Assembly (NCBI RefSeq): GCF_002019765.1
Contig: NZ_KV917380.1
Location: 2,328,667 to 2,392,666, forward strand
Source: Shouchella oshimensis
GTDB lineage: Bacteria; Bacillota; Bacilli; Bacillales; Bacillaceae_D
DNA length: 64,000 nt
Direction of reading: 5' to 3'
The position numbers and the translations under genes are program-made. Under the pieces are notes generated by a model, which was not told the origin of the DNA, did not search any database, and saw nothing but the letters and a program-made list of their open reading frames with translations. The first letter of the stretch is position 1. Each line of letters begins with the position of its first letter. Below are positions 29,570 through 32,709 of this stretch, in pieces.

Positions 29570-30613
29570 CTATTTATCCCCTTCTAAAGAACCTCTATTT
29601 GTAAAATGCGAGAGAGGAAGATGATTCCATCTTCCTGCAAGAATTTCTTTTATATCTTTCATCGCAGTCGAATGAGGTACCGTCTCTCCTTCTTTTTTTG
29701 TATAAAGCTCAGCAATATAAAACGGTTGAGTAAAGAAAGCCTCCAGTCGTTCACCTTTCTTAAAATTACTCTCTTCTTCCTTAGGTAAAAACTCGAACCC
29801 TTTTTGTGAATATAAGATACGCATCTCTCGGTATCGGCGTATGTATTTTTGAACTTGCTTTTGAACACTTAAATCTTTTGACTCATTTAAACTCTCATCG
29901 GAAAATGAAAATAGTGGATGGATAGCTGGATAATATTTTTTTGCAACTAGCTCCATATCAAAACTCCATATCATATCTAATGGTCCAAATGGCAAATCTT
30001 CATCAACCGCTTCTCCTCTTAAATCCACTAACACAACCGTTAAACTTTTTAAATTTTTAGCTGTGTCATGTTCTTTAATGTAAGTTAAATCACCAGCAAG
30101 GACATGTGCTCGATCCATAAGAATAATAAGATCTTCATCAACAAGATTTTTATCTATTAATTCAACCGCACTTTCTTTAGAAGATGCTAACATTTCAGAT
30201 TCATTTTGAACTTCCATTAACCCAGGAACATTATCGGAGGAATGTAAAAGCATCGTCTTAAATCCTTGCTTTTTTAAACGTAGAAAAACTTCCGCCACTA
30301 AGATAAGCTGCCCCATCTCTTTACGAGCTAAAAGCCCTATTACACTCCCTTTTTTTAGAGGAGCAAAAAAATCAATAGCTTTTATTCCAGTTTCCACCAA
30401 ATTTAATTTATCATCAGATAGTACTAAATCATCTAGAAGACAGTTTGCCAAACTTGCTAACTTTACAAGGGTCTGAACTTCCGCTTTTTCAAGAGGAATT
30501 TTTCCAGTACATAAGTTAGATACCGTGGCAGGCCGTAAACCGACTTCTTTTGCAGCAACTGTTAAATTCGGTACTTTTTTTCGCAATAATGCAACATTTA
30601 AACGCAAATTCAT
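29570..30613 (-). CDS. HTH regulator fused to a degenerate F1-ATPase beta subunit
   Basis: A 347-residue protein. Residues ~12-63 form a Cro/C1-type helix-turn-helix (LTVAAKEVGLRPATVSNLCT). From ~72 on the sequence follows the F1-ATP synthase beta subunit: LVETGIKAIDFFAPLKKG (72-89), a Walker-B-like LIILMDRAHV (162-171), YYPAIHPLFSFS (227-238, cf. the beta-subunit IYPAVDPLDSTS), and a C-terminal helical domain (259-345) with FFTQPFYIAELYT and IKEILAGRWNHLPLS. The P-loop GGAGVGKT is replaced by LLARKEMGQ (95-102), and the GERTREGND segment is lost, so ATP hydrolysis is unlikely. The DELSEED region has become EFLPKEE (274-280). It follows the acetamidase gene by 10 bp; its own ribosome binding site is poor, suggesting coupling. 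It probably represses its own operon via the palindrome at 31598-31630. Confidence 0.8.
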   Translation of the reverse strand: MNLRLNVALLRKKVPNLTVAAKEVGLRPATVSNLCTGKIPLEKAEVQTLVKLASLANCLLDDLVLSDDKLNLVETGIKAIDFFAPLKKGSVIGLLARKEMGQLILVAEVFLRLKKQGFKTMLLHSSDNVPGLMEVQNESEMLASSKESAVELIDKNLVDEDLIILMDRAHVLAGDLTYIKEHDTAKNLKSLTVVLVDLRGEAVDEDLPFGPLDMIWSFDMELVAKKYYPAIHPLFSFSDESLNESKDLSVQKQVQKYIRRYREMRILYSQKGFEFLPKEEESNFKKGERLEAFFTQPFYIAELYTKKEGETVPHSTAMKDIKEILAGRWNHLPLSHFTNRGSLEGDK

Positions 30614-30623
30614 ATTCTCAGTT

Positions 30624-31583
30624 TTATACCTTCCTCAACTTTTCCTTTATTAACGATGCGTGAACACCTTTTTTGCCGTTTACAATTTGTGTAATGCTCA
30701 AATTAACGGCTAAAGATCCCCACAAACTTGCTTCAACTTTTGTCATCGAATATAGTTCTTGCATCCATTCTAACATATCATTCAATGCTAACCACATCGC
30801 TTCTTCTAGGTCTTCGTGAAATGCTAATGTGATATACTCGTCTTTCGTTACTATCCTAGGTCTTTTTAAAGATTGGCTTTTTAGTACATTTATTTGAAGG
30901 TGAATCTTGTCCATAGGACACTCTAGTGCCGGTCCACTAATTTCACCATTACCTTGAACTGCATGACCATCTCCAACAGATAAAAGTCCACCTTCTACTT
31001 CAATTGGCAAATATAACGTACTTCCTTTTCCTAATTCTTTACAATCAATGTTTCCTCCGGTTTCTCTAGGAATAAAGGTAGAGTGAAATCCTTTTTCTTT
31101 AGGGGGCATTCCAATAATACCTATGAAAGGAGAAATGGAAATAGCCCTATCGAATAACCCGAATTGGCTTTTAGCTATCATTTTATCAAGATCTAAGTGA
31201 AAGTCATATAAAACTTCTTTTTGATCCTCAATAGCTAAACGTTTATTCCATTCACTTTTAAAGCCCCCTGCTGAAGCCCATCCCCAATCAGATGGTTTTA
31301 ACTCAATAATTTCCAGTTCAAGCACATCCCCAGGCTTCGCACCTTCAATCCATACTGGACCAGTCAATGCATGTCCAAAAAAAGGTGCTTGTTTTTCTGG
31401 TAGTAAGTCTGTCCAGCGTTTCCTTGCATCTCCAGCTGATTTACGCTTTTCTTTTCCCCAACCAGAGTCTAATGTTTTAAAAACTATCTGGTCACCTGAT
31501 TGAATCGACAGCACTGTTTCCAAATCGCGATTAAATGCATTATGAAGTGATTCTTTACTCGGGTTTACATAATGAACAGTCAT
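30624..31583 (-). CDS. Acetamidase/formamidase family protein
   Basis: A 319-residue enzyme of the FmdA/AmdA family, predicted to hydrolyse a short amide (formamide, acetamide or similar) to the acid plus ammonia. Family features include FGHALTGPVWIEGAKPGDVL near the N-terminal third, GGNIDCKELGKGSTLYLPI, and the metal-site region GLLSVGDGHAVQGNGEISG. It is 80-100 residues shorter than the long FmdA form but usual for the short Bacillus form. AAAGGAGG precedes the ATG. It is the first gene of a two-gene operon with the HTH-F1-beta-like protein. No amide transporter or cofactor gene is adjacent. Confidence 0.88.
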   Translation of the reverse strand: MTVHYVNPSKESLHNAFNRDLETVLSIQSGDQIVFKTLDSGWGKEKRKSAGDARKRWTDLLPEKQAPFFGHALTGPVWIEGAKPGDVLELEIIELKPSDWGWASAGGFKSEWNKRLAIEDQKEVLYDFHLDLDKMIAKSQFGLFDRAISISPFIGIIGMPPKEKGFHSTFIPRETGGNIDCKELGKGSTLYLPIEVEGGLLSVGDGHAVQGNGEISGPALECPMDKIHLQINVLKSQSLKRPRIVTKDEYITLAFHEDLEEAMWLALNDMLEWMQELYSMTKVEASLWGSLAVNLSITQIVNGKKGVHASLIKEKLRKV

Positions 31584-31597
31584 AATAACCTCCTTTT

Positions 31598-31649
31598 ACT
31601 TTATAGAGTAATTTTAATTACTTATAAAGTCAAATATTTTCTGAAAATA
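31598..31649 (-). promoter_or_regulatory. Acetamidase operon promoter covered by a 33-bp palindrome
   Basis: On the minus strand: -35 TTGACT (31628-31633), 17 bp, -10 TACTCT (31605-31610). The palindrome 31598-31630 has outer arms ACTTTATA/TATAAAGT (8 bp) and inner arms GTAATT/AATTAC (6 bp) with one unpaired base of asymmetry. It spans from the -35 to past the -10. Immediately upstream a second perfect 7-1-7 repeat TATTTTC-T-GAAAATA lies at 31635-31649. Confidence 0.75.
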
Positions 31650-31770: not shown

Positions 31771-32709
31771 TTACGTGCATGATTTAGCATGTGTTACTGT
31801 TTTTTGTAAAAACTTCGCTATTTCTAACATCCCATATTGGTCTGCTCGCTCCTCGGCTTCTCCATTGTAGTTCGTATTAGTATTAATGTCATACGTATAG
31901 AAAACACCATCTTTATCTTTGATGCATTCAATCCCTGCTATTTGGATGCCATTACGCTGAAGAACGCGTTTATAATCTTTAATAAAAGGTTCAGAAAAAG
32001 TTGGATCGATCACAAATTTTGAACTTGGCTCTTCTCCCACTGGACAGTAAAGATTTTCAATAGAGCATGCATCGGCTGGACATAGTTCAAAGCCGTCAGA
32101 CGTGTTCACTTTCACAGCATAAATGAATTCACCACCAACAAATTCACATCTAGTAATATACGGCTCTTCTGATTCAATATATTGCTGCAACAATGTGATG
32201 CCATCAACAGGTTCTTCAAATCCATCACTATCAAGATACGTTCTTAATGCTGCTCTTGATTGAAACAACTGCACACCAAGTCCTTTTCCAGCTCGATTGT
32301 GCTTTGTAATAAAGGGCTCATTTTCAAATGCTTTGCTTGCTTCAAATAACGGTTCTTTTCCTACTGCCACAATTGTTTTTGGTGTTTTTATGCCTTCCTT
32401 CTCTAATTCTACATACTGAACAACTTTACTTAATTCTAATCGCAATGCACGCGAATCGTTAATGACCGTTCGACCATACTGCTCTAGCCAGACGAGTACA
32501 GCGCTAGTTAGTTCTGGTGCAAATCGATGACCTCGTGTATGGGACGATGCGCTCATACGATTATAGAAAATCCCTTCAGGTGGTTCCTCTTGCAGGTTAA
32601 TGGAACCAGAAGATAAGTTCCAGTTCTCGTATGGGGCACCTAATTCTTCTAGCCGATTAAACAATGGCGCTGACCATTCTTCATTTTCATGAATGACATA
32701 AATCTTCAT
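31771..32709 (-). CDS. ATP-grasp protein of the RimK type
   Basis: A 312-residue stand-alone ATP-grasp protein. The N-terminal ~95 residues form the pre-ATP-grasp domain (GIFYNRMSASSHTRGHRF). The ATP-binding core has FITKHNRAGKGLGVQLF and the metal-binding end reads GIECIKDKDGVFYTYDINTN followed by TNYN. The family ligates amino acids such as glutamate to carboxylates; the closest named groups are RimK and LysX-like ligases. No acceptor protein or pathway gene is nearby, so the substrate is unknown. AAGGGGA precedes the ATG, and the gene is divergent from the cyclo-ligase-like gene. Confidence 0.78.
   Translation of the reverse strand: MKIYVIHENEEWSAPLFNRLEELGAPYENWNLSSGSINLQEEPPEGIFYNRMSASSHTRGHRFAPELTSAVLVWLEQYGRTVINDSRALRLELSKVVQYVELEKEGIKTPKTIVAVGKEPLFEASKAFENEPFITKHNRAGKGLGVQLFQSRAALRTYLDSDGFEEPVDGITLLQQYIESEEPYITRCEFVGGEFIYAVKVNTSDGFELCPADACSIENLYCPVGEEPSSKFVIDPTFSEPFIKDYKRVLQRNGIQIAGIECIKDKDGVFYTYDINTNTNYNGEAEERADQYGMLEIAKFLQKTVTHAKSCT

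Follow-up and report, generated by a model that had tools for sequence, protein, structure and literature searches.

A predicted helix-turn-helix domain joined to the remnant of an F1-ATPase beta subunit

The window analysed here, a 64,000-nt stretch of the Shouchella oshimensis genome, carries an operon in which an acetamidase/formamidase-family gene (P0002) is followed at close distance by a regulator gene (P0001; Table 1). Judged by its sequence, P0001 is an XRE-type helix-turn-helix (HTH) joined to the nucleotide-binding and C-terminal domains of the F1-ATPase beta subunit. Its sequence and fold are similar overall to those of F-ATPase beta, and in fold searches with the whole protein the match lists were filled by the F1 part. 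The protein, for whose residues 64-347 a likeness to AtpD had been proposed, does match the AtpD equivalog profile TIGR01039, at 82.3 bits, far below the cut-off of 462.85. The N-terminal beta-barrel (crown) of F1 beta is missing, and about 65 residues modelled as a helical HTH stand in its place. The genome has this single regulator copy besides its true atpD.

Several lines of evidence suggest the HTH. Pfam HTH_26 was matched weakly by all four family members searched (E from 0.015 to 0.0018, among matches listed at E up to 0.1), the score of the window protein falling below the Pfam gathering cut-off; one AF2 model shows a helical HTH at the N-terminus; and this region is a strongly conserved stretch in the alignment of 87 homologues described below. 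When the HTH by itself was compared with PDB sequences, two LRR-kinase matches came up, which we took as spurious. Together, the homology searches and the family alignment bear out, at the level of sequence, the original prediction that an HTH has been joined to an F1-beta fold no longer fit for catalysis.

Table 1. Features of the amidase-regulator operon, in window coordinates.
Feature	Position	Strand	Basis or remark
HTH-F1beta regulator gene, P0001, 347 aa	29570..30613	-	Open reading frame and F1-beta similarity
Predicted XRE/Cro-C1-type HTH, N-terminal, residues 1-63	30425..30613	-	Pfam HTH_26, AF2 helices, conservation
Remodelled P-loop GLLARKEMGQLI, residues 93-104	30302..30337	-	Alignment to GGAGVGKT of the same genome's AtpD
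Walker-B-like ILMDR, residues 164-168	30110..30124	-	D167 in 85/87, R168 in 86/87
Adenine-side pair Y228-P229 (bovine Y345-P346)	29927..29932	-	Y/F in 87/87, P in 87/87
Adenine-side QPF...YT, residues 296-305 (bovine Q416, F418, F424, T425)	29699..29728	-	Family alignment
Acetamidase/formamidase-family gene, P0002	30624..31583	-	First in operon, 10 bp before regulator; Pfam FmdA_AmdA
Putative operator A, TTACTTTATAGAGTAA	31596..31611	.	Covers -10; 20.6 bits
Putative operator B, TTACTTATAAAGTCAA	31618..31633	.	22 bp from A, covers -35; imperfect, 3.6 bits alone
Sigma-A-like promoter TTGACT-N17-TACTCT	31605..31633	-	Embedded in operators B and A

The P0002 product matched Pfam FmdA_AmdA with an E-value of 7.3e-33 (114.4 bits, cut-off 27) and scored 78.7 bits against the formamidase FmdA equivalog NF045496, below the cut-off of 500. 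The same gene order and close spacing recur in two further species of the genus. Across 89 distinct regulator loci an amidase adjoins the regulator in four (the window, G009, G012 and G066, in the last of which it lies within the regulator operon). The proposed coupling to an acetamidase thus holds locally, as an operon, and fails as a general rule, and we rejected acetamidase as the general partner of the family, the other 85 loci having no adjacent amidase. A conserved neighbourhood was sought across the 89 loci and none was found: the largest neighbour cluster was one of mixed kinases (27/89), and the downstream kinase and two-component genes of certain genera were rejected as partners because they are separated by a gap of about 90 bp or more and vary in kind by genus. 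In six loci (L003, L136, L182, L184, L187 and L196) an alpha/beta hydrolase gene directly follows the regulator, with a gap of at most 11 bp or with overlapping frames. The one in Neobacillus mesonae (L003, 6028-6812) is split into two frames of 186 and 75 aa and is probably disrupted. Upstream of the operon in the window lies a RimK-like ATP-grasp gene (31771-32709), which is likewise present in G009 and G008, though the operon itself is patchy.

A family widespread in Bacillales and separate from AtpD

A search for the same fusion elsewhere found full-length homologues in 85 of 397 genomes, a sample drawn from the order Bacillales (four-sequence profile, E < 1e-100). Within the genus of the window, intact copies occur in 3 of 13 genomes and broken ones in two, and the taxonomic family of the species, among 41 genomes, holds the same five copies. 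The broken copies are those of G005 (L264, 2995-3738) and G008 (L265, 3049-4911); in G008 the adjoining amidase gene is also in pieces, so that both genes of the operon seem to be decaying together. A draw of 398 genomes from the phylum gave three matches at an E-value of 1e-50, namely the genome of the window itself, G123 and G578, a member of a different class, whose copy lies at L369, 1495-2562. Among 80 loci kept from a contig search, the sole close full-length match was that of Neobacillus mesonae.

The regulator of Paenibacillus cellulositrophicus, annotated 'hypothetical protein', resides on an 897-kb plasmid (L345, 4989-6047). Mobile carriage was looked for in 72,556 plasmid records, which yielded one full-length copy, and in 50,697 phage records, which yielded none. 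The remaining plasmid and phage matches were partial or AtpD-like, and carriage of the family by phages or plasmids was rejected. In a tree of 33 rows, 17 regulator-family proteins formed one clade against 16 F1-beta relatives (support 100/100), separated from AtpD by a branch of about 2.0 changes per site. Besides the full regulator, one genome (G073) has an F1-beta copy of 269 aa that lacks the HTH (L263, 3097-3906). This copy begins at MLETGIKVID, seems to have its own ribosome-binding site and is preceded by phased operators; it is possibly a modulator or decoy of the full regulator.

Catalytic residues are lost while the adenine side of the pocket is kept

We aligned 87 full-length homologues (the 85 of the Bacillales sample, that of G012 and that of L003), the others being 39-61% identical to the window protein, and mapped them onto the AtpD of the window's own genome, with bovine numbering assigned by motif anchoring and with the alignment around GER being uncertain. 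Nucleotide contacts were taken from the list for bovine F1 in PMC9615146. The catalytic Lys162 is replaced by Gln in all 87 proteins and Thr163 by Leu in 75, Thr being retained in one; the Arg260 column is empty in 87/87, and Tyr311 is lost in the family. The column of Glu188 holds Gly in 53/87 and Arg189 is unconserved, in agreement with the proposed loss of the GER segment, within the uncertain alignment of that stretch. On the adenine side, in contrast, position Y345 is Y or F and P346 is P in all 87, Q416 is Q in 87/87, F418 is F in 83/87, F424 is F or Y in 83/87 and T425 is T or S in 87/87, such that most members either retain the six adenine-side contacts listed in PMC9615146 or carry conservative replacements there.

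The P-loop had been described as lost. Its catalytic Lys and Thr are indeed replaced, but the loop persists in a remodelled and strongly conserved form: G93, G101, Q102 and E108 are invariant and A96 and R97 are present in 86/87, a pattern that, at the level of the alignment, is not one of drift. Considering the conserved loop together with the lost catalytic residues and the kept adenine side, ATP hydrolysis has very probably been lost and the conserved adenine-side pocket is very probably under selection, which narrows the earlier question of what ligand is sensed.

A further, mostly charged patch (residues 259-265 and 291) comprises the invariant R259, Y261 and E263, with R260 and E291 in 86/87. 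It corresponds in place to the aurovertin contacts of bovine F1 beta and could be a contact for a ligand or a subunit. Of the aurovertin contacts listed in PMC9615146, Y381, P350 and L378 are retained in the family; aurovertin itself is disfavoured as a ligand, with R412 replaced by Ala in 82/87 and Q379, Q385 and Q411 mostly charged instead. R412 is absent from the AtpD of the window genome as well.

Putative phased operators overlie the regulator promoters

The regulator promoters share a 16-bp palindrome, TTACTyTwwArAGTAA, which is repeated at intervals of about 22 bp across the -35 and -10 elements of the gene's own promoter. We described it by a symmetric weight matrix (16.1 bits in all) from 87 upstream regions, seeded by reading these regions side by side. 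Sites of at least 8 bits occurred in 85 of the 87 regions, with at least two sites in 82 and at least three in 53, as compared with 0.05 sites per region in shuffled sequences, and adjacent sites were spaced by 21-23 bp in 132 of 150 cases. By one rule, phased chains of at least two sites were detected in 76 of the 87 family promoters and in none of 1052 control windows taken from the same loci; in 72 promoters every site of the chain reached at least 8 bits. Sites of at least 14 bits numbered 178 within the operator regions (6.5 per kb) and 20 outside them (0.018 per kb). Since the matrix had been seeded from regions already read, we also held out each of 21 families in turn, and a site of at least 12 bits was still recovered in 85/87 promoters, both misses belonging to family f41, in which the sites lie 341-391 bp upstream. 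Two loci outside the training set agreed with the pattern: the plasmid-borne Paenibacillus locus has two phased operators (18.1 and 15.6 bits), and the copy from the other class (G578) has one upstream operator of 13.3 bits.

In 69/87 promoters we could discern a sigma-A-like promoter whose -10 element is the left half of an operator, with a 17-bp spacer in 66, and a phased pair covers both -35 and -10 in 69/87, which is the geometry of a repressor. The palindrome noted earlier before the amidase-regulator operon is, by these sequence measures, operator-like, with one strong and one weak copy (operators A and B). The weak copy places the window promoter with the 11 (of 87) failing the two-site rule; in the sister species G009 and G012 both operators exceed 11 bits each. 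Operators A and B form the sole pair in the window genome matching the pattern with two mismatches, the reversed control pattern having one match there too, and the loose single 16-bp pattern is not enriched in this genome (7 sites versus 13 for the reversed control).

A small and variable set of predicted unlinked targets

Phased pairs were scanned for in 94 genomes (86 holders of the regulator, four without the gene and four with broken or partial copies), and a match occurred in 80 of them, mostly at the regulator's own promoter. With two mismatches allowed there were 83 matches versus 17 for the reversed control in 35 genomes, and the reversed control gave 33 matches in the remaining 59, so matches at this stringency include chance occurrences. 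Of the 21 unlinked pairs that we examined (at most two mismatches), 11 precede a gene of interest and the other 10 are chance-like, lying within genes or before unrelated ones; 14 further poor two-mismatch pairs were set aside as chance by eye. Behind phased pairs we found an M3 oligopeptidase (G042, G202, G227 and G265, and a fragment in G394), an operon of an amidase and an alpha/beta hydrolase (G202), an alpha/beta hydrolase (G229), a TPR-alpha/beta hydrolase (G265 and G307), an ABC exporter (G229) and the HTH-less F1-beta copy (G073). These families were assigned by profile match, except for the G265 hydrolase and the G394 fragment, which were assigned by eye.

No Pfam match at 0.01 was obtained for the M3 proteins of G042, G202 and G265, but they pass NCBIfam TIGR02289 and keep HExGH; the one in G227 is an ordinary M3 protein that Pfam does match. 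Operators were present at the G042 gene and at the three genes closest to it (G265, G116 and G202, the G202 pair coming from the phased-pair scan) and at none of the next 26 M3 genes examined, suggesting that most of these targets are dedicated paralogues tied to the regulator, G227 excepted. Amidases occur in 82 of the 397 genomes; among the best 30 loci, of which 29 were readable, sites of at least 9 bits precede the amidase in 5 of 15 holders (G000, G009, G202, G238 and, weakly, G067) and in 0 of 14 genomes without the regulator. The same amidase subclade lies under operators in trans in G202 and G238.

A stricter single-site pattern had matches in 80 of 86 holders, and its reversed control, on the forward strand, in 23/80. 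Eighteen new places examined gave one plausible target, an alpha/beta hydrolase about 12 bp downstream of the site in L353; the rest, by eye, were inside genes or before unrelated genes. Single sites thus add almost nothing beyond chance, and we trusted phased pairs only. The phased-pair scan revealed no second, unlinked target in many holders, in which autoregulation may be the whole role. The predicted regulon is tiny and differs between genomes, and no atp genes were seen among the unlinked targets examined.

A ligand-relieved autorepressor as the favoured model

Promoter-covering operators, control of the regulator's own gene and a few variable targets are, in combination, typical of a local repressor that a ligand relieves. 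We therefore favour, with a probability of roughly 0.7, an autorepressor that has a non-catalytic F1-beta sensor domain and controls hydrolytic or detoxifying enzymes. The architecture, the family conservation, the operator, the autoregulation site and the target genes are supported by sequence comparison, and from these we infer the rest of the model. As a one-component transcription factor, the protein would bind phased 16-bp palindromes through its XRE-type HTH, at sites that cover the promoter of the regulator gene or operon and those of a few unlinked targets, and would most likely repress these genes. The F1-beta portion is the natural candidate for the sensor: its ability to hydrolyse ATP presumably gone, it would serve as a ligand-sensing and probably oligomerisation module. 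A ligand at or near the retained adenine-side pocket would cause release from the operators and so induce the hydrolytic enzymes (amidase, alpha/beta hydrolase, M3 peptidase) or an exporter, along with the regulator itself, and these products may in turn act on the inducer. That the targets are hydrolases of unlike chemistry and an exporter suggests a role in disarming harmful substances, not in a single catabolic pathway.

What the inducer might be is where the readings diverge. The domain may be a sensor of energy or adenine nucleotides that binds AMP, ADP, ATP or a relative without hydrolysis and couples energy status to scavenging hydrolases, as could fit the peptidase, amidase and hydrolase targets and a pocket with its six adenine-side contacts mostly kept and its phosphate and catalytic side lost. 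Nevertheless, so tiny and genome-variable a regulon is unlike a global energy response, and the replacement of Lys by Gln and of Thr by Leu would be expected to lower the affinity for di- and triphosphates, leaving this proposal possible though on balance unlikely. A rather unlikely, tentative proposal is that the dead F1-beta copy, joined to the HTH, acts as a decoy of an antibiotic target: it would detect natural toxins directed at F1-ATPase, or adenine-like ones that its pocket accommodates, and would derepress the enzymes that destroy or expel them. In this proposal the phased arrays, of two to four palindromes each, might be matched by an oligomer such as a six-membered, F1-like ring, with several HTHs placed along one face of the DNA. 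Microbial F1 inhibitors named in PMC9615146 include tentoxin, efrapeptins, aurovertins, apoptolidin and ammocidin; sensing of such inhibitors would fit the regulon and is compatible with the sensing of adenine compounds. The regulator might alternatively be an activator, since its operator arrays reach upstream of -35 in many promoters and some XRE proteins both activate and repress; we consider this improbable given the phased pair over both -35 and -10 in 69 of 87 promoters.

Docking of the domain on the real F1 alpha, gamma or epsilon subunit, by which it would report ATP-synthase assembly, might be expected of a protein that keeps the beta fold and the C-terminal domain. The N-terminal barrel, which in beta forms the crown of the alpha3beta3 ring, is missing, however, the branch to AtpD is long (about 2.0 changes per site) and no atp gene is among the targets examined, making this idea very unlikely. 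The least likely of the alternatives is the dedicated regulator of amide catabolism put forward originally: three species of the genus, and G066 too, do have the amidase in the regulator operon, and in G202 and G238 it is under operators in trans, yet 85 of 89 loci lack an adjacent amidase and other hydrolases take its place elsewhere.

Relation to known systems

The regulator resembles AtpD (TIGR01039) in its nucleotide-binding fold, helical C-terminal domain and adenine-side pocket residues, and differs from it in having an HTH in place of the barrel, in the loss of the catalytic Lys, Thr, Glu and Arg, and in lying outside the atp operon and in a separate clade (100/100). Two Mycoplasma families, NF045934 (F1-like, MSC_0618 beta) and NF045858 (the MMOB1670 gliding G1-ATPase), are, going by their names, presumably F1-beta relatives that were also turned to a different use; the regulator scores about as high against them as against TIGR01039 and far below their cut-offs (86.9 bits against 570 and 75 bits against 850), and the Mycoplasma F1-beta relatives in our set (L006, L020 and L043) keep a canonical P-loop, unlike the regulator. 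With one-component regulators of the XRE/Cro-C1 type it shares palindromic operators at its own promoter and, going by weak matches, an N-terminal HTH_26-like domain, but here the sensor would be an F1-beta remnant, and most promoters carry phased arrays of two to four operators.

Enzyme folds have been reused as sensors in MocR/GabR (aminotransferase), ROK proteins (sugar kinase) and BirA, and we know of no enzyme-derived regulator that uses a rotary ATPase subunit. A search of the open-licence PMC literature, judged by its listings, found no description of an HTH-F1beta regulator. Thus, the use of an enzyme fold as a sensor is already known, and the HTH-F1beta architecture and its regulon appear to be new.

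For the biology of these bacteria, our results suggest a widespread family in which the catalytic subunit of a rotary ATPase has been turned into a transcription factor, one that appears to be a self-controlled switch for a few hydrolase or exporter genes across many Bacillus relatives, and the defined operator and predicted regulon make this claim directly testable. Should the domain indeed sense F1-directed toxins, an antibiotic would be sensed through a retained copy of its own target, and the regulon would point to unknown inhibitors of ATP synthase in bacteria and to enzymes able to inactivate such inhibitors.
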